Shown one piece after another: positions 1,822 through 14,020 of a DNA stretch of 32,253 nt (its first letter is position 1; each line of letters opens with the position of its first letter). This DNA is from Lentisphaerota bacterium (lineage in GTDB: Bacteria > Verrucomicrobiota > Kiritimatiellia > RFP12 > UBA1067), in NCBI GenBank assembly GCA_012838435.1, contig DUPH01000167.1, forward strand, positions 1-32,253, read 5' to 3'. The notes beneath the pieces are model-generated. The model ran no database searches. It was not told the DNA's origin and worked only from the letters and a program-made list of their open reading frames with translations. Both the position numbers and the translations under genes were made by a program.

Positions 1822-1971
1822 ACACTTCGTCAAGACACTTCGTTGCTGGCGCAATCGACTAAGTGTGGAGACAGTGTAGACGACTAAGTGTGGGGATTAA
1901 GTGTGTCTCCGCGCACAGCGCGGAGGGAAAGCGGTGCCGCGACCCGCGCACAGCGCGGCTTTTGTCACCGC
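1822..1971 (+). repeat. Composite inverted repeat, copy 1 (2 left / 3 right units plus hairpin module)
   Basis: Left units ACACTTCGTC/T lie at 1822-1831 and 1835-1844, then a core ending in GCGCAATC. Right units GACTAAGTGTG lie at 1857-1867 and 1882-1892, with a variant ATTAAGTGTG at 1896-1905 and a degenerate unit between. Left and right units pair at 9 of 10 positions. A hairpin follows (CTCCGCGC / aca / GCGCGGAG, 1907-1925). Then comes a stem GCGGTG (1931-1936) with CACCGC (1966-1971) enclosing CCGCGC/GCGCGG. Related copies are at 5795-5962 and 7157-7363. Further downstream, 2001-2016 holds an inverted copy of the AACGCTCAAC motif that precedes copies 2 and 3. The rest of the gap to 2154 holds only short direct repeats (CGCCAAGG, TTTCATG). 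Confidence 0.85.
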
Positions 1972-2154
1972 ACCCCAAATTTTGCCCACTTACTTGGGCA
2001 TTGAAAGTTGAGCGTTTTCTGGAACCGCCAAGGACGCCAACGCCAAGGTGCCACTGTTTTTCATGAAGTTTCATGTGTTTCATGGTTCCACTTGAACGCT
2101 GTGGTCGCTGTCCAGAGTTGCAGCATAATTTGTGGCCGGAGTAGTCATCCCGGC

Positions 2155-2160
2155 AGGAGG
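2155..2160 (+). promoter_or_regulatory. Strong ribosome binding site deciding the start at 2167
   Basis: A perfect AGGAGG lies six bases before ATG 2167. The open frame extends to 2008 without another such site. The ATG at 2167 begins a clean signal peptide, so it is taken as the start. Confidence 0.85.
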
Positions 2161-2166
2161 TACGAT

Positions 2167-4521
2167 ATGCACGTTAGAGCGTTAGTGATCAGTTGCACGG
2201 TGTTCAGCCTGTGCGTGGCGTCGGCGCAGGAGTTGCGCAACGGCGGATTCGAAGAGGTGTCGGACAACGGCACTCTGAAGGGGTGGCGTGCCTATGGCGC
2301 TTACGCCTGCGATACGGCGCAGGTGCATGGCGGGACGCGCTCGATCCGCTGTGACGTGCCGGCGGGCAGTAAAGGGCGGGGCGGTGTGATGCAGGAGATC
2401 GTCTACGACCGGCCCGACACCACGCCGATCGTGTTCGGCGGTTGGAGCCGCGCCGAAAATGTCGCGGCCTCGGAGTACTGCATCTACCTCGATATCTGGT
2501 ACGCCGGCGGCGGCAATGCGTGGGCCGTGATGGCCTCGTGGTCGCAACCGACCCACGACTGGGAATACACGGCGGAGGTGTTTTACCCAGAAAAGCCGGT
2601 GGAGAAGATACAGGTCTTCGTCTTTTTGCGCAACGGTTCCGGACGTGTCTGGTTTGACGACCTCACGCTGGAACGGCGCGTGCCGGCGCTCGGCATCAAG
2701 TCGGTACGGCTGCATACCGACGTTCCGCGCTCTCCCGACGGCGTGGTGGTAAATCTCGCGTTCTGGAAACGCGCGCAGTGGCAGTGCCGCGTGCTGGAGC
2801 GAGGCGAAGAACGGGAGCGTGTTTCTGGCGACGGCGCGACAGCGGTTTTCAGCGCGACCGGCGGTCCGGACCGCACACTGGCGGTCACCGCACGCGCTGG
2901 CGAGGAGCATTTCGAGCAGACGTTAGCTCTGCCTGCGGTTCCGCTGACGCGCACGAATCCGGTCCCGCGCGGTTGCGCGGTGTGGACCGCCGACGCGATG
3001 CGCCACATCACGCCGCTGACCTATCCGACTGCTTCTGAGATTGCCGCACCAGAGATCGCACTGGACCTTGCGCGCCGTGAGTGCGAGAGTGCGCAGCTTC
3101 TGGTGACGGCCGCCGATGGCGTAGCGGTGTCGAACGTGAATGTGACGGTGACGGCGCTGACCGATGACGCGGGACGGCGCTTTGACGGCGAGGTGACTTG
3201 GCAACGCGTCGGTTACATTCGCAGGCAGCGCCCGTACCATCCGCATCCCTGCGGTGCTCCGGTCGATGAGAACTGGCTGCCCGATCCGTTGTTGCCGGCC
3301 GCTCCGTTCACGGTGCGGCCTGCCGCCACCCAAGGCGTGTGGCTGACGGCGCGCGCCGCGCCGGATGCCGTGCCGGGCACCTACCGCGGGCAGATCACTG
3401 TGAGCGTTGGAGACCAGCCGTTGCGGATTCTGCCGATCACCGTGCGTGTGCGCGGATTCGCCAATCCCGTGACCTTCGGCATGCCCACCGCATTCTGCGT
3501 GATGGACGGCTTCACGCGCGCGCAGTATCCGGATCGCTTCGAGGAGATGAAGCGCAAAACCCACGATCTGATGCTCAGCCACCGGCTCAATCCAGATGAC
3601 ATCTCGCGAACCGAGCCGCCCCGCATCGACGACCTGCTGTATGCGCGCGAGCGCGGTATGAATCGTTTTAACATCCTGAACTTGGTGCCGAAACCGACCC
3701 GCCCGGTCAAGTGGATCTGTTACTCTCCGCTCGATGTCTATACACCAGCTTTTTATGACGACCTCAAGGCGCGCCTCACACCGTATGTCGCGGAGTTGCG
3801 GCGGCACGGTCTTGAGAAATACGCGTACCTCTACGGATTCGACGAGCGGCGGCACGACTATTATCCCGCAATCGCCGAGTTGTGGCGTGCGCTCAAACGC
3901 GACTTCCCAGATATTCCGATGATGACGACGGCCATGATGTACCGAGACATGCGCGATGGCAAAAACTATCCAGAGCAGGACATCACCGACTGGTTTTGTC
4001 CGTTGACCAGCGTGTACGATCCAGAACTCTCCGCGCGTCTGCGCGCTCAGGGGCGTCAGGTCTGGTGGTATGTCTGCTGCGGACCGACCTGGCCGCATGC
4101 GAACTTCGCGTCATACGAATATCCGCCGATCGAGGGACGGGTGCTGGGGTGGCTGACCTACCATTATCGCTCGGACGGCCTGCTCTTCTGGCATGTGAAT
4201 CTGTGGCCGGACCGTCCGCCGCTCCAAACCGGCGACACCTTCTTGCACGAATGGGTGGCGGAGCACTCGCTGAAAATGCCCGGCGACGGCCAGTTGCTCT
4301 ATCCGGGAACGGATGGGCCACTGCCTTCGATCCGGCTGGCCCAAGTGCGCGACGGGATAGAGGATTACGAGTGGTTACAGATGCTGGAACACTGCGCGGG
4401 GCGCGCCGCCGCCGACGCGATGACCGGCGAATTGATCCGCAGCATGACTGATTTCACGCGCGACCCGGCTGCGTTGCGCCGTGTACGCGCGCGCATCGCT
4501 GACGCACTTGAACGCCCTTAA
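2167..4521 (+). CDS. Secreted DUF4091 protein with N-terminal carbohydrate-binding-like domain
   Basis: A 784-residue exported protein. Residues 1-20 form a signal peptide with an A-S-A/Q cleavage site. Residues about 23-170 open with ELRNGGFEE and look like a galactose-binding/CBM-type beta-sandwich. The middle contains a beta-rich domain with PGTYRGQITV. The C-terminal half is a DUF4091-like catalytic-type fold. It ends with the family signature R-D-G-I-E-D-Y-E-W-L at about 728-737. DUF4091 proteins are widespread in polysaccharide-degrading Verrucomicrobia and Planctomycetes and are presumed glycoside hydrolases, but the substrate cannot be read from the sequence. The next gene starts 12 bases downstream, so the two are probably co-transcribed. 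Confidence 0.85.
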   Translation: MHVRALVISCTVFSLCVASAQELRNGGFEEVSDNGTLKGWRAYGAYACDTAQVHGGTRSIRCDVPAGSKGRGGVMQEIVYDRPDTTPIVFGGWSRAENVAASEYCIYLDIWYAGGGNAWAVMASWSQPTHDWEYTAEVFYPEKPVEKIQVFVFLRNGSGRVWFDDLTLERRVPALGIKSVRLHTDVPRSPDGVVVNLAFWKRAQWQCRVLERGEERERVSGDGATAVFSATGGPDRTLAVTARAGEEHFEQTLALPAVPLTRTNPVPRGCAVWTADAMRHITPLTYPTASEIAAPEIALDLARRECESAQLLVTAADGVAVSNVNVTVTALTDDAGRRFDGEVTWQRVGYIRRQRPYHPHPCGAPVDENWLPDPLLPAAPFTVRPAATQGVWLTARAAPDAVPGTYRGQITVSVGDQPLRILPITVRVRGFANPVTFGMPTAFCVMDGFTRAQYPDRFEEMKRKTHDLMLSHRLNPDDISRTEPPRIDDLLYARERGMNRFNILNLVPKPTRPVKWICYSPLDVYTPAFYDDLKARLTPYVAELRRHGLEKYAYLYGFDERRHDYYPAIAELWRALKRDFPDIPMMTTAMMYRDMRDGKNYPEQDITDWFCPLTSVYDPELSARLRAQGRQVWWYVCCGPTWPHANFASYEYPPIEGRVLGWLTYHYRSDGLLFWHVNLWPDRPPLQTGDTFLHEWVAEHSLKMPGDGQLLYPGTDGPLPSIRLAQVRDGIEDYEWLQMLEHCAGRAAADAMTGELIRSMTDFTRDPAALRRVRARIADALERP

Positions 4522-4533
4522 AAGGAGACGCTG

Positions 4534-5538
4534 ATGAAAAAGAAACTGAATAAGGAAACGATCCTCGAAATGGCACGCGGGTTCCAACCGTCATGCGTGA
4601 TCATCGCCGCAGCGGAACTGGACGTCTTTACGATCTTGCACGCTCGCCCCATGAATGCGGTGCAATTGGCCGCCCGCATCAAAGGCGATCTCAGGGCTGT
4701 GATTATCCTGCTGGATGCGCTCGTCGCGCTTGGTTTTTTGACCAAGTCGACCGACACTGAACCCGTTTATCGCGTGCCGAAAGCGGTGGCCGAAGTCCTG
4801 ACCGCAGATGGGGCGCAGAGTATGCTGGGCATGGTGCGCCACCTTGGTAATTGTCAGCGCGCCTGGGGGCAGTTGGCCAGTGTCGTGTTGCGCGGCAAGC
4901 CCGCCGTCCGCCGTCCGAGTGTTCTGGGCGCCGATGGCGATCTGGCTTCATTCATCCAGGCCATGCACGAGGTGTCCGATCCTGTGGCGACACCGCTCGT
5001 CGCCAGCCTTGGCAAGCTGACGTTCACGCACCTGCTGGATCTCGGCGGTGCCTCCGGTACATGGACCATTCCCTTCCTCCAACTCAATCCCGACGCCTGT
5101 GCAACCATCATGGATCGGCCCGACGTGATTCCTATGGCCAAGCGGCGGATGCGGCAGGCCGGGCTTACGCGCAGGGTGCGGCTGTTCCCCGGTGACTTCA
5201 TGAAAAACGCATTGCCGAAGGGGGCCGATCTGGCATGGGTGAGCGCGATCGTCCATCAGAACTCGCGGGAGCAGAACCGCAAACTGTTCGCGAAGGTGTT
5301 TGCGGCCCTTGAGCCTGGCGGTCAGATTCTGATCCGCGACGTCTTCGTGGATGCGTCTCGCACACGCCCGGCAAGCGGTGCGCTCTTTGCGGTCAACATG
5401 CTGGTCAACACGCCCGGCGGCGGGACCTTCACCTTCGGCGAAATGCGCGATGATCTTACGTCCGTCGGGTTCTCAAAAGTCAAAGTCCTGCGCCGTGGTC
5501 AAGCGATGGACTCCGTGATCTGCGCCTCAAAAAAGTGA
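4534..5538 (+). CDS. SAM-dependent O-methyltransferase (acetylserotonin/hydroxyneurosporene type)
   Basis: A 334-residue cytoplasmic enzyme of the COMT-like methyltransferase_2 family. Residues about 20-95 form a winged-helix dimerisation domain. The SAM-binding motif L-D-L-G-G-A-S-G-T-W lies at 168-177, with an acidic residue near Asp194 that could hold the SAM ribose. The block GDFMKNALPKGADL at about 220-233 matches the family. Where plant and bacterial O-methyltransferases usually have a catalytic His in an L-H-x-W block, this protein reads I-V-H-Q-N at about 239-243, so the His is retained. AAGGAG sits just before the ATG. The acceptor is unknown. The DUF4091 gene lies 12 bases upstream, which suggests a two-gene operon without explaining the chemistry. 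Confidence 0.8.
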   Translation: MKKKLNKETILEMARGFQPSCVIIAAAELDVFTILHARPMNAVQLAARIKGDLRAVIILLDALVALGFLTKSTDTEPVYRVPKAVAEVLTADGAQSMLGMVRHLGNCQRAWGQLASVVLRGKPAVRRPSVLGADGDLASFIQAMHEVSDPVATPLVASLGKLTFTHLLDLGGASGTWTIPFLQLNPDACATIMDRPDVIPMAKRRMRQAGLTRRVRLFPGDFMKNALPKGADLAWVSAIVHQNSREQNRKLFAKVFAALEPGGQILIRDVFVDASRTRPASGALFAVNMLVNTPGGGTFTFGEMRDDLTSVGFSKVKVLRRGQAMDSVICASKK

Positions 5539-5764
5539 AATCTCACACGAAAGCACGAAGGGCACGAAGGTTTTTTGGGTGGCATGGCTCGGGTTTATTT
5601 AACGCAGAGACGCAGAGGTTTTTGGGAGTAGCCCCGAAGGGGCGGCTTCACCTTAGCCCAGGGCAAGCGAAGCGCAGCCCTGGGTATCGTCGCCCCGTGC
5701 CAGCGTGCCCTGAAAGGGCCACTTCAATTCCGAGCGCTCAACGCTCAACTCTCAACGTTCAAGT
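5539..5764. repeat. Intergenic mosaic of short palindromic and direct repeats
   Basis: No gene is supported here. The stretch holds a CACGAAGG direct repeat (about 5547-5571) and a purine-rich AACGCAGAGACGCAGAGG motif (about 5601-5618) that recurs at 13479 and in inverse near 9373. Hairpins are GCCCC/gaa/GGGGC (5631-5643), CCCAGGGC/GCCCTGGG (5657-5664 with 5677-5684) and GCCCT/gaa/AGGGC (5707-5719). An AACGCTCAAC / AACGTTCAA motif lies at about 5740-5762. A 109-residue open frame across it is repeat-derived. Confidence 0.75.
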
Positions 5765-5962
5765 GGGCCGGGAGGGCGAGTGTCCCCACGAGCCGCACTT
5801 CGTCGCGACACTTCGTCCAAACACTTCGTCGTTAGCGCAATCGACTAAGTTTTTGGAGGACTAAGTGTGACCGACTAAGCGTGGGGGACTAAGTGTGTTT
5901 CCGCGCGTGGCGCGGAAGAAAGCGGTGCCGCGCCCCGCGCGTAGCGCGGCTCTTGTCACCGC
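5765..5962 (+). repeat. Composite inverted repeat, copy 2 (3 left / 4 right units plus hairpin module)
   Basis: A GGGCCGGGAGGGCGAGTG leader (5765-5782) precedes left units at 5795-5804, 5808-5817 and 5821-5830. The core reads GTTAGCGCAATC. Right units start at 5843 (GACTAAGT followed by T-rich bases), 5859-5869, 5873-5883 and 5887-5897. The following hairpin is TTCCGCGC / gtg / GCGCGGAA (5899-5917). Its outer pair is T-A where copy 1 has C-G, so the stem is kept by a double change. The second stem is GCGGTG (5922-5927) with CACCGC (5957-5962). From here to 6107 nothing further is recognised. Confidence 0.87.
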
Positions 5963-6117
5963 ACTCAAAAATTTTACATCTTCCAAGTAAACACAACAGA
6001 CAATGCGGTGAAGGCGACACGTACCGTTTGCCCATGCGCCGCTCAGCCCGTTGTTAATTCGTTATTCACTCTCCACCCTCTCCTGTGTTATTTTTTGCCA
6101 TCAAAACGGAGGCGGTT

Positions 6118-7101
6118 ATGTGGCGGATGGTTTTCTGGGTGGCGGTTATATTGGGGGCGGGGGGCTGTCTCGCGAGTGACCCGGTAGGGTCGAGTGTGCG
6201 GGCGGAGAACGGCCTTTATATGGTGGTCGACCTCTCCGGCGGGACGTCGGCGTCAAACTATCCCGTGAGCTATCTCAGCGGTGTGCCGTCAGACGGCTGG
6301 ACGGACGAATACAAAACCACAAAATTGGTGATGCGCCGCATCCCGGCGGGGACGTTCACGATGGGTAGTCCCTCGGGCGAACTGAGCCGTAGTGATGACG
6401 AACGGCAACATCGGGTGACGCTGACGAAGGACTTCTATATCGGGGTCTTCGAGGTGACGCAACGGCAGTGGGAACTGGTGATGGGGAACCGACCCAGCTA
6501 TTTCAGTAACACGACGTACTATCAGACCCGTCCGGTAGAGCAGGTGACCTACAGCGACATTCGCGGTTATTCCGCAGGGACGCACTGGCCCGCAAATGAC
6601 GCGGTAGATGCGGAATCGTTCATGGGCAGGCTACGGGCGAAGACCGGGCTGGCGACCCTTGATCTGCCGACGGAGTCGCAGTGGGAGTACGCTTGTCGGG
6701 CGGGGACGGGCACGGCGCTGAATAGTGGCAAGAACCTGACGGTGATCGGAAACTGCCCGAACGTGTCGGAGGTCGGGCGTTACTGGCACAACGGTGGTTC
6801 CGGAGAAAGTCAGGACTGCGCGCCGAACACGGGAACCGCGCCGGCGGGCAGTTATCTGCCTAACGCATGGGGCCTCTACGACATGCACGGCAACGTGGAC
6901 GAGTGGTGCCTCGACTGGTGCGAGACTTATCCGGAGGTTGCGCAGGATCCGGGCGGTGCTCCTGCGGGGACGTCCCGCGTGATGCGGGGCGGGAGCTTTA
7001 TCAGCCTCGCATGGGGCTGTCGCTCTGCGGGGCGCAGTGTCTGCGGTCAGGACTGCCGGTGCATTGATGCTGGCTTTCGCGTCGCCAGAATCCTCCGGTA
7101 G
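6118..7101 (+). CDS. Exported FGE-sulfatase (SUMF1) domain protein, probable lipoprotein
   Basis: A 327-residue protein of the formylglycine-generating-enzyme-like fold. Start 6118 is preferred over a GTG at 6085 because GGAGG lies at 6108-6112 and the N-terminus then gives a short hydrophobic signal ending A-G-G-C17, a plausible lipobox. The domain begins near residue 58 (RIPAGTFTMGS) and continues with E-V-T-Q-x-Q-W, LPTESQWEYACRAG and Y-D-M-H-G-N-V. It ends with RVMRGGSF and GFRVAR. The usual G-N-V-x-E-W block reads GNVDEWCLDW. Most such bacterial proteins are not true sulfatase activators, and no sulfatase is present here; a ligand-binding or structural role is equally possible. Confidence 0.85.
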   Translation: MWRMVFWVAVILGAGGCLASDPVGSSVRAENGLYMVVDLSGGTSASNYPVSYLSGVPSDGWTDEYKTTKLVMRRIPAGTFTMGSPSGELSRSDDERQHRVTLTKDFYIGVFEVTQRQWELVMGNRPSYFSNTTYYQTRPVEQVTYSDIRGYSAGTHWPANDAVDAESFMGRLRAKTGLATLDLPTESQWEYACRAGTGTALNSGKNLTVIGNCPNVSEVGRYWHNGGSGESQDCAPNTGTAPAGSYLPNAWGLYDMHGNVDEWCLDWCETYPEVAQDPGGAPAGTSRVMRGGSFISLAWGCRSAGRSVCGQDCRCIDAGFRVARILR

Positions 7102-7106
7102 AACGC

Positions 7107-7363
7107 TCAACGTTCAACGTTCACGAGGGCCGGGAGGGCGAGTGTCCCCACGAGCCGCACTTCGTTCCCACACTTCGTCGGTTACACCTCGTCCAAAACA
7201 CTTCGTCCCCACACTCGTCATTAGTGCAATCGACCAAGTTTTGGAGACTAAGTGTGAACGACTAAGCGTAACCGACTAAGAGTGAGGACTAAGAGTGTCT
7301 CTGCGCACGGCGCGGAGGGAAAGCGGTGCCGCGACCCGCGCACAGCGCGGCTCTTGTCACCGC
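7107..7363 (+). repeat. Composite inverted repeat, copy 3 (5 left / 5 right units plus hairpin module)
   Basis: Begins with AACGTTCAAC-type motifs and a GGGCCGGGAGGGCGAGTG block (from about 7128). Left units lie at 7157-7166, 7170-7179, 7184-7193, 7198-7207 and 7211-7219. The core is ATTAGTGCAATC. Right units start at 7232, 7246, 7260, 7274 and 7287. A hairpin CTCTGCGC / acg / GCGCGGAG (7299-7317) keeps pairing through a T-G wobble. The GCGGTG stem starts at about 7323 and closes with CACCGC at 7358-7363. This is the longest of the three copies. Confidence 0.87.
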
Positions 7364-7416
7364 AAAATTCTTGCGCCAGGCTTGCGGATCGGTATCGGGA
7401 TCGGTGCCTCGTCCGT

Positions 7417-7575: not shown

Positions 7576-7878
7576 ATGAACTATCTGGCCATTAAGGATC
7601 TCAAGGCACCCAAGCTCGTCCGGGAGAAGCTCGCCGCATACGGAACGGCGCTGGTCACCAACAATGGGCAACCCATGGCCCTGCTGGTCAATCTCGCCGA
7701 GGGCGAGTCTCCCGAACGTCTGGTCGAAGCAGTACGGCTGGCGCGCGCTCGGCTGGCACTGTCCGATCTGCGGCAGACAAGCCGCCGCAACGGCGTGGCG
7801 GCAATGACACCTGCCGAAATCGAAGGCGAAATCCGCGCGGCGCGTAACGCCCGCCGCGCGCGGCAAGGGCAGACGTGA
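7576..7878 (+). CDS. Antitoxin-like protein, Phd/YefM type (putative)
   Basis: A 100-residue protein whose N-terminal half (MNYLAIKDLKAPKLVREKL, then VTNNGQPMALLVNL) resembles the DNA-binding, dimerising fold of Phd/YefM antitoxins. The C-terminal half is Arg/Ala-rich and likely the flexible toxin-binding part. It would bind the palindrome at 7552-7568 and repress its own promoter. It ends with a four-base overlap (GTGA) into a PIN-domain gene, the classic antitoxin-toxin arrangement. The assignment rests on gene order, size and short motifs, not on a database match. Confidence 0.72.
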   Translation: MNYLAIKDLKAPKLVREKLAAYGTALVTNNGQPMALLVNLAEGESPERLVEAVRLARARLALSDLRQTSRRNGVAAMTPAEIEGEIRAARNARRARQGQT

Positions 7879-8288
7879 TCGCCGCCGTCTTCGACACCAA
7901 TGTTGTAGTGTCGGGCATACTCACACCCGGCGGTCCGCCGGGACGCATCCTCGACGCCATTTTGGACGGGGTTTGTCGGCCCGTGCTCACCGATGGCATT
8001 CTGGCGGAATACGAAGAGGTGCTTTGTCGCCCGAAGTTCCGCTTCTCCACCGACGACGTCCAACTCCTGCTTGATGCCATCCGGGCGTGCGCTCTGGTCG
8101 CGCCGTATACTCCGTTTCCGCTCAAAACACCTCTGCCCGATCCCGATGACATTATCTTTCTTGAGGCGGCTGCTGCGCTCGGTGCCCCGCTGGTCACTGG
8201 CAATGTCCGGCATTTCCCGCGCTCGGCCATCGGCCGCGTATCCGTGCTGACCCCCGCGTCTTTCCTAAACACGCTTGCAAATCAATAG
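7875..8288 (+). CDS. PIN-domain toxin (putative RNase, COG1569-like)
   Basis: A 137-residue PIN-fold protein, expected to be a Mg2+-dependent endoribonuclease toxin. The acidic residues of the active site are visible: Asp7 in F-D-T-N-V, Glu in A-E-Y-E-E-V near 46-50, and the Asp pair in D-P-D-D-I-I-F-L-E near 92-100. The terminal L-V-T-G-N-V-R-H-F block fits the PIN_3 family. The start is a GTG overlapping the antitoxin stop, so translation is probably coupled. The toxin role comes from family knowledge and the paired gene order. All key acidic residues are retained, so the toxin looks intact. Confidence 0.85.
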   Translation: MIAAVFDTNVVVSGILTPGGPPGRILDAILDGVCRPVLTDGILAEYEEVLCRPKFRFSTDDVQLLLDAIRACALVAPYTPFPLKTPLPDPDDIIFLEAAAALGAPLVTGNVRHFPRSAIGRVSVLTPASFLNTLANQ

Positions 8289-8470: not shown

Positions 8471-8481
8471 GCCACACACCA

Positions 8482-8648
8482 AGCTTCGCGCCTTCGCGCC
8501 TTCGCGTGAAGGGCCGAGCAATGCTTTTACTCTCACGATTGCGAGCCACTGCGTGGTCGCAATAAGAGAGGTTGACTCGCGACCCGCGACTTGCGGCCGG
8601 TCCTGCCCCCAAAAAAATCTGCGTAGTCTGTGCCCATCTGTGGATAAA
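8482..8648. repeat. Short repeats and a strong hairpin before the relB promoter
   Basis: A CTTCGCGC triplet repeat lies at about 8484-8507. A hairpin spans 8530-8570: CTCTC with GAGAG, ATTGCGA with TCGCAAT, and CCAC/tgc/GTGG at the tip. At about 8609-8646 lies an inverted, diverged copy of the CCACAGATTACGCAGATTTTTTTGG-type sequence found at 13540. No open frame is convincing. Confidence 0.6.
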
Positions 8649-8720
8649 AACCTGAGCAGCATTACTCTAAGAACCTCTACGTGCGCGAAAAAAAACTAGT
8701 GTATTGCGCATATATTGCAC

Positions 8721-13469: not shown

Positions 13470-14020
13470 TTTTTTTAACGCAGAGACGCGGAGGCGCAGA
13501 GATTTTTTTGGGGGGTGCATGGCTCGGGTTTTTGAGCATCCACAGATTACGCAGATTTTTTTGGGGGGGGGGCTGCCGGGACTGCGGGTGCTGCGGGTGG
13601 GGGCGGCGCGGAGCGCCGCCGCGGGCAAGTGACACTTGCCCCTCCCGGTGCTCCGCAATGAACCCCGAAATATCCTTCCGCACAGCGGAAGGGCGGCTCG
13701 TGGGGACACTCGCCCTCCAGCCCACGATTCGTCTCGCGGAGCGCCGGGAGGGACGAGCGTCTGCTCGTCCGGGCGGCGTGACCGCCGCCGCTTCTGAACG
13801 CCGGACGCTGAAGAAAGCGGCGTCGCGCGGGATACCGCTTGCCGCCGCACTCCAAGTTTTGCGTCCAGATTTTGGAGTGTGGTGCCGCGCCCCGCGCACT
13901 CCAGATTGCTGCGGGGACTGTGGGCACTGCCGGTACTGCGGGCGTGGGCGGCGCATGCGCCGCTGCGGGCAAGTGACACTTGCCCCTCCCGGTGCTCCGC
14001 AATGAACCCTGAAACTATCC
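13470..14020. repeat. Convergent intergenic region packed with palindromic repeats
   Basis: No gene is supported between the ABC-F stop and the guaA stop. The region holds AACGCAGAGACGCGGAGGCGCAGAG (about 13479, shown as a motif family), a CCACAGATTACGCAGATT motif (about 13540), and GC-rich hairpins. Two palindromes read GGGCAAGTG-A-CACTTGCCC (13623-13641 and 13967-13985), each followed by CCTCCCGGTGCTCCGCAATG. An inverted GGCTCGTGGGGACACTCGCC block lies near 13691. A diverged hairpin module has GCGGCG (13817-13822) pairing with CGCCGC (13843-13848). Overlapping open frames on both strands are repeat products. Confidence 0.8.

Follow-up and report, generated by a model that had tools for sequence, protein, structure and literature searches.

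Architecture of the three loci

The window, by which we mean the whole stretch of 32,253 nucleotides that was analysed, is contig C34 of a Lentisphaerota bacterium genome (G000; 3,998,345 bases in 449 contigs), and holds three intergenic loci of one design, in which n copies of ACACTTCGTC are followed by a core ending in GCAATC, by m copies of GACTAAGTGT, and by two GC hairpins. An initial annotation had placed this layout at 1822-1971, 5795-5962 and 7157-7363 with left/right unit counts of 2/3, 3/4 and 5/5, and both layout and counts are confirmed, as is the C-T mismatch in each left/right unit pair. The right arm of locus 1 has one extra degenerate unit, GAGACAGTGT, beyond its three, and the fifth left unit of locus 3, at 7211, carries a 1-nt deletion. 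Spacers of 3 or 4 nt keep the units from being joined strictly head to tail, which corrects the original description. The units are far more frequent in the window than expected: GACTAAGTGTG occurs 20 times with up to 2 mismatches (4.3 expected) and ACACTTCGTC 14 times with up to 1 mismatch (1.9 expected), and neither number was reached by any of 100 shuffles. Loci 2 and 3 have a common left flank, GGGCGAGTGTCCCCACGAGCC, and a common odd first right unit, and are therefore closely related, so that the three examples are not fully independent. The features, all on the plus strand, are as follows.

1790-1821, +: remnant (about 11 codons) of the ORF downstream of rnfG, truncated at the left boundary of element 1
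1822-1844, +: element 1, left arm, two units (ACACTTCGTC/ACACTTCGTT)
1845-1856, +: element 1, core GCTGGCGCAATC, identical to the subfamily consensus
1857-1904, +: element 1, right arm, three units (GACTAAGTGT/GATTAAGTGT) and one degenerate unit
1908-1924, +: element 1, first GC hairpin TCCGCGCACAGCGCGGA, next to the outer end of the right arm
1928-1975, +: element 1, second hairpin module, AAAGCGGTGCCGCG...CACCGC, which has dispersed array-less copies as well
5774-5794, +: element 2, left-flanking dispersed module GGGCGAGTGTCCCCACGAGCC, which also occurs without arrays
5795-5830, +: element 2, left arm, three units
5831-5842, +: element 2, core GTTAGCGCAATC
5843-5896, +: element 2, right arm, four units
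5900-5916, +: element 2, first GC hairpin
5919-5966, +: element 2, second hairpin module, ending in CTTGTCACCGCACTC
7136-7156, +: element 3, left-flanking dispersed module GGGCGAGTGTCCCCACGAGCC
7157-7219, +: element 3, left arm, five units, the innermost with the 1-nt deletion
7220-7231, +: element 3, core ATTAGTGCAATC
7232-7296, +: element 3, right arm, five units
7300-7316, +: element 3, first GC hairpin
7320-7367, +: element 3, second hairpin module, kept without an array at the matching site of the sister genome G002

Other repeats share the window with these elements. The modules GGGCGAGTGTCCCCACGAGCC and GAGTGCGGCGGCAAG lie at 13695-13715 and 13838-13852 (minus strand) without any array. 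The short tandem repeats at 5549-5620 (CACGAAGG and ACGCAGAG types) and the AACGTTC heptamers at 5735-5767 and 7098-7123 recur between genes in related genomes, and a further dispersed repeat at 8479-8660 has more than 10 copies in G002 (identity about 79-88%). Directly past element 3 comes a likely toxin-antitoxin pair (7576-8288, plus strand), in which a gene for a PIN_3 domain protein lies behind a small ORF. The only match in an Rfam scan of the window was an Acido-Lenti-1 RNA at 5630-5684 (minus strand), outside the elements and with a near copy on G002 contig C148; at the elements no structured-RNA family reached the gathering score.

Copies and distribution of the unit

A genome-wide search with a sequence-only model (E < 1e-8), in line with the model search proposed in the initial annotation, recovered 23 core-containing places in G000, that is, about 20 copies beyond the three window loci. 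About 20 more core-containing loci lie in G002. Among 60 relatives, the core as it stands in the window was found in G002, while other genomes, even G046, from another family of the order, carry arrays of the unit GACNAAGTGT around different cores. When 388 genomes of the phylum were searched for the exact pair ACACTTNGTC-N(2-6)-ACACTTNGTC, it was present in 18 (the reversed control pattern gave one match), in a patchy pattern in which near relatives of carrying genomes are devoid of arrays. The pair stands at 151 places in G046, 121 in G231, 48 in G042 and 31 in G000. Over 298 distinct arrays of at least three units, the information content of GACNAAGTGT is 0.1 bits at position 4 and 1.0-1.9 bits at each of the other nine, values that are inflated because the search allows up to 2 mismatches and ignores position 4; the spacers in these arrays are 2 (281), 3 (488), 4 (411) or 5 nt long (102). 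At four JABGQM loci (L128, L148, L163 and L187) the arrays face away from a GCGCTTCGCGC-like hairpin, and their outer unit, CGACTAAGCAGTT, is present in G001 and G003 as well. Similar pairs were also found in viral contigs; L204 and L207 resemble 12-bp satellites of an unrelated kind. A literature search with the unit sequences returned only unrelated papers among the matches listed.

The surroundings of the arrays bear on whether these repeats are kept for host use, as a cis-acting chromosomal site such as a terminator, an mRNA stabiliser or a cluster of nucleoid-protein sites. The elements indeed fold stably and lie mostly at 3' ends of genes, with 12 convergent and 3 divergent flanking gene pairs based on crude ORF calls, and in several genomes a GC hairpin follows the outer end of the right arm in 32 of 195 cases, compared to 2 of 195 at the core end. 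Such a site, however, would hardly be expected in only 18 of 388 genomes and to be missing from their near relatives, nor to destroy a conserved ORF as element 1 has done (see below), and the elements share no common neighbour gene: no recurrent protein family was found beside the arrays, where the largest clusters were spurious ORFs running through the repeats. We therefore regard a host-maintained site as very improbable.

The two arms vary independently

The near-matched counts of the window loci had led to the proposal that the arms expand together and pair as a zipper, that is, as an RNA or single-stranded DNA hairpin. Parsing arms outward from the core in 31 elements of the window's subfamily from G000 and G002, we found left counts of 1-8 and right counts clustering at 4, with no correlation between them (Pearson 0.05, Spearman 0.03, p = 0.87). 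Independent variation of the two counts had been named beforehand as grounds for abandoning joint expansion, and this is what the 31 copies display. Pairing tells the same story in the 29 elements compared: units of a copy's own arms pair no better than those of shuffled partners (0.842 vs 0.847), the variable unit position pairs in 12% of cases, the C x T mismatch persists almost throughout, and own arms exceed shuffled ones neither in equality of spacer lengths (0.556 vs 0.631) nor in spacer pairing (0.350 vs 0.424). Nothing keeps the left and right arms matched in this subfamily.

The zipper can nonetheless form on paper, given the inverted arrangement of the arms and RNA fold z-scores of -2.4, -2.0 and -4.9 for the three window loci; what fails is the idea that anything in the subfamily maintains it. 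In addition, the elements show no clear orientation preference with respect to flanking genes (6 and 5 co-directional). A point in favour of paired arms comes from one G046 subfamily with six units per arm, in which the third-ranked pair is C/G and all other ranks are T/A, as if the arms had once been an exact inverted duplication; an origin of that kind would fit, although these copies are very alike. For the window's subfamily the zipper is largely refuted, and overall we consider it improbable.

Carriers with TIRs and target duplications

Complete relatives in G002 and G046 are bounded by TIRs of 20-21 bp (GTAATCGGYTRGYGACAGGGG), those of G046 being 210-262 bp long, starting with GTAATCGGYTAGTGACAGGGG and ending with its inverse. 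TIR matches number 84 in G000, 60 in G002 and 139 in G046, with 0 control matches for the G000/G002 search. Of 41 TIR pairs, 12 have flanks that share a 9-bp direct repeat (1 mismatch allowed), against 0.33 in shuffled partners (the maximum of 500 shuffles was 3), and no duplications of 5-7 or 11-12 bp were found at these 41 pairs. In one element of 395 bp (L061), the TIRs enclose both arms, the core GCTGGCGCAATC and the hairpin modules, and the duplication matches at 8 of 9 positions; another of 330 bp (L140) holds a partial array and has a 9/9 duplication. TIR elements range from 66 to 710 bp, mostly near 250, and are multicopy and without coding capacity. With TIRs, target duplications and a short, multicopy, non-coding body, the complete relatives are MITE-like miniature transposons, and of the three readings offered in the initial annotation that of a mobile non-autonomous element is the best. 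TIRs and 9-bp duplications together argue for spread by a DNA transposase acting in trans.

A hairpin module with ends GAGTGCGGYGRCAAG was considered as the element's own TIR and rejected, as it is a separate dispersed module, usually array-less and without target duplication. The GTAATCGGYTRGYGACAGGGG element, moreover, is one carrier and not the whole story, since arrays are not near such a TIR in 7 of the 9 named genomes sampled, and of the 58 arrays in the G046 loci sampled just 9 have one nearby; in those seven genomes either other carriers or another spreading route must be at work. In 197-bp elements of G001 and G003 (L382 and L383), a single unit-like GACGAAGTGC lies 26-36 bp inside the TIR, which might hint at the unit's origin as a transposase site, or be chance.

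The main rival to a functional reading of the arrays is that they are neutral passengers: a miniature transposon or an intergenic hairpin would have acquired short tandem duplications, which were then copied with it and are read by no protein. The same intergenic regions and TIR elements are full of other short tandem repeats (of the ACGCAGAG, CACGAAGG, AACGTTC and GTCCTCG types), unit counts vary freely, and the preference for gene ends seen in the convergent pairs is what passengers might also show. Neutral duplications, however, do not readily explain a 10-mer kept across families at 1-2 bits in nine positions with a free fourth (a pattern partly imposed by the search) while cores differ, nor the fixed orientation of the unit relative to the TIR: within the first 90 bp of TIR ends 47 units point one way and 4 the other (0.4 and 0.7 expected), although many of these ends are related copies. 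We judge the neutral account unlikely, though a serious contender.

History of the window copies

The window copies show neither a TIR, with up to 3 mismatches allowed, nor a target duplication, and are mosaic relics without TIR ends. In G001, G003 and G004, rnfG is followed by an overlapping, intact ORF of about 105-115 codons, while in the window this ORF runs for about 11 codons and then turns into element 1, which has replaced most of it. At the counterpart of locus 3 in G002 the right hairpin module is present and the array absent, and the FGE-sulfatase gene between elements 2 and 3 (window 6118-7101) is mostly missing at the matching G002 place. The ORF loss at element 1 and the array-less G002 allele of locus 3 suggest that the arrival of the elements was lineage-specific.

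Probable autonomous partner and search for the transposase

In G002, six contigs stop 94-127 bp into an identical TIR end, which is the effect expected of a multicopy, longer insertion sequence and points to a probable autonomous partner with the same TIR ends, whose gene body lies outside the G002 assembly. The break ends carry a promoter-like stretch and an ATG (ATGAAAACAAAG), the shortest ones stopping before the ATG, and the left end reads GTAATCGG...TATGAT...ATGAAAACAAAG. A G004 relative encodes a 53-aa N-terminus whose sole match, below cut-off, is to DUF6788. No complete autonomous element was found among the fetched loci, and neither a plasmid search with the N-terminus nor a viral scan with the TIR gave a match. 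Two candidates were discarded: a 2.2-kb TIR pair on G000 contig C97 encloses an unrelated gene, and an IS66 origin, suggested by GTAA ends, is at odds with the absence of PF03050 from G000, G002 and G046 and with the 9-bp duplication, that of IS66-type elements being 8 bp.

The RAYT/TnpA-REP transposase that the initial annotation had suggested as a partner is not needed. A REP/BIME-type repeat moved by such a Y1 enzyme would agree with the intergenic mosaic of hairpin modules and with the five Y1_Tnp matches in G000, but no array was found in the stretches around any of these five loci, and G046, with at least as many arrays as G000, has no detectable Y1 transposase. Unless the enzyme sits in the missing contigs of that genome (93% complete), RAYT is refuted as the general mover. 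Furthermore, Y1 transposition does not fit a 9-bp target duplication and a 20-bp TIR. This is in our view the least probable of the explanations weighed. Of the original interpretation, the mobile non-autonomous element thus stands, while co-expanding arms, a maintained zipper and the RAYT link do not.

Interpretation

Our preferred reading, to which we give a probability of roughly 55%, is that all three loci derive, as degenerate copies, from a non-autonomous mosaic element that is dispersed in the genome, and that its arrays are putative sites for a DNA-binding protein, riding on MITE-like carriers. Its hallmark would be a subfamily-specific core between inverted arrays that both repeat one 10-bp site (GACNAAGTGT, with spacers of 2-5 bp). 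The TIRs, duplications and dispersed copies suggest that a transposase supplied in trans spread the element, and the window copies, as the lack of a TIR in the window and the array-less sister allele of locus 3 indicate, have lost their TIR ends through module shuffling and deletion. Units would be gained and lost separately on each arm by tandem duplication and deletion, through slippage or recombination, consistent with the uncorrelated counts. Since the unit is conserved between bacterial families amid drifting cores and spacers, its most likely role is that of a recognition site for a protein that binds double-stranded DNA, either the transposase or a host factor, which would profit from many sites in facing orientation.

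A bolder and rather unlikely extension is that an as yet unrecognised DNA-binding system of the phylum uses GACNAAGTGT arrays as its platform; several unrelated mobile carriers would have picked it up, and it would need facing arrays to act, for example to synapse or silence transposon ends. A 10-bp site kept across families amid drifting surroundings points to a protein that can be searched for directly. Variable-copy intergenic repeats of poorly studied phyla tend to be described from their shape only; in this case a guess of that kind, the co-expanding zipper, could be checked against dozens of copies and had to be rejected, while the search also turned up a carrier. Such elements also damage and rearrange genes, one copy having removed most of an ORF beside the Rnf operon.

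Comparison with known systems

Ends of the Tn7, Mu and Tn5053 types, like eukaryotic subterminal repeats, have several copies of a site at each end, inverted between ends. The elements described here share the multiple copies of one site and their inverted orientation; those sites, however, flank a gene-bearing interior, whereas about 12-50 bp separate our arrays, and the probable autonomous left end is array-less in its first 126 bp. REP, BIME and REPIN sequences are likewise intergenic mosaics of palindromic modules, but those moved by RAYT differ in that our elements combine TIRs with a 9-bp target duplication and abound in G046, where no Y1 transposase was detected. Bacterial MITEs, Correia and Nezha among them, have been reviewed (PMC10969869), and resemble our elements (66-710 bp) in being non-autonomous, foldable and of high copy number, with TIRs and target duplications; internal inverted arrays of a conserved site seem to be unmentioned in that review, whose text contains neither "tandem" nor "subterminal".

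The closest precedent is the BOX element of Streptococcus pneumoniae, a modular intergenic repeat of variable copy number composed of boxA, n copies of boxB and boxC, which has TIRs and a target duplication, for which mobilisation in trans by an IS has been proposed, and which is enriched between convergent genes and inserts into other repeats (PMC3049150). Our elements are, similarly, short, modular and intergenic, with a tandem module of variable copy number, TIRs, target duplication, a bias towards convergent genes and insertion into repeats. In spite of these commonalities, a tandem boxB flanked by boxA and boxC is not the layout of the window's elements: BOX has one array of a larger module, and what sets our elements apart by architecture is two facing arrays of a short, conserved 10-bp site.
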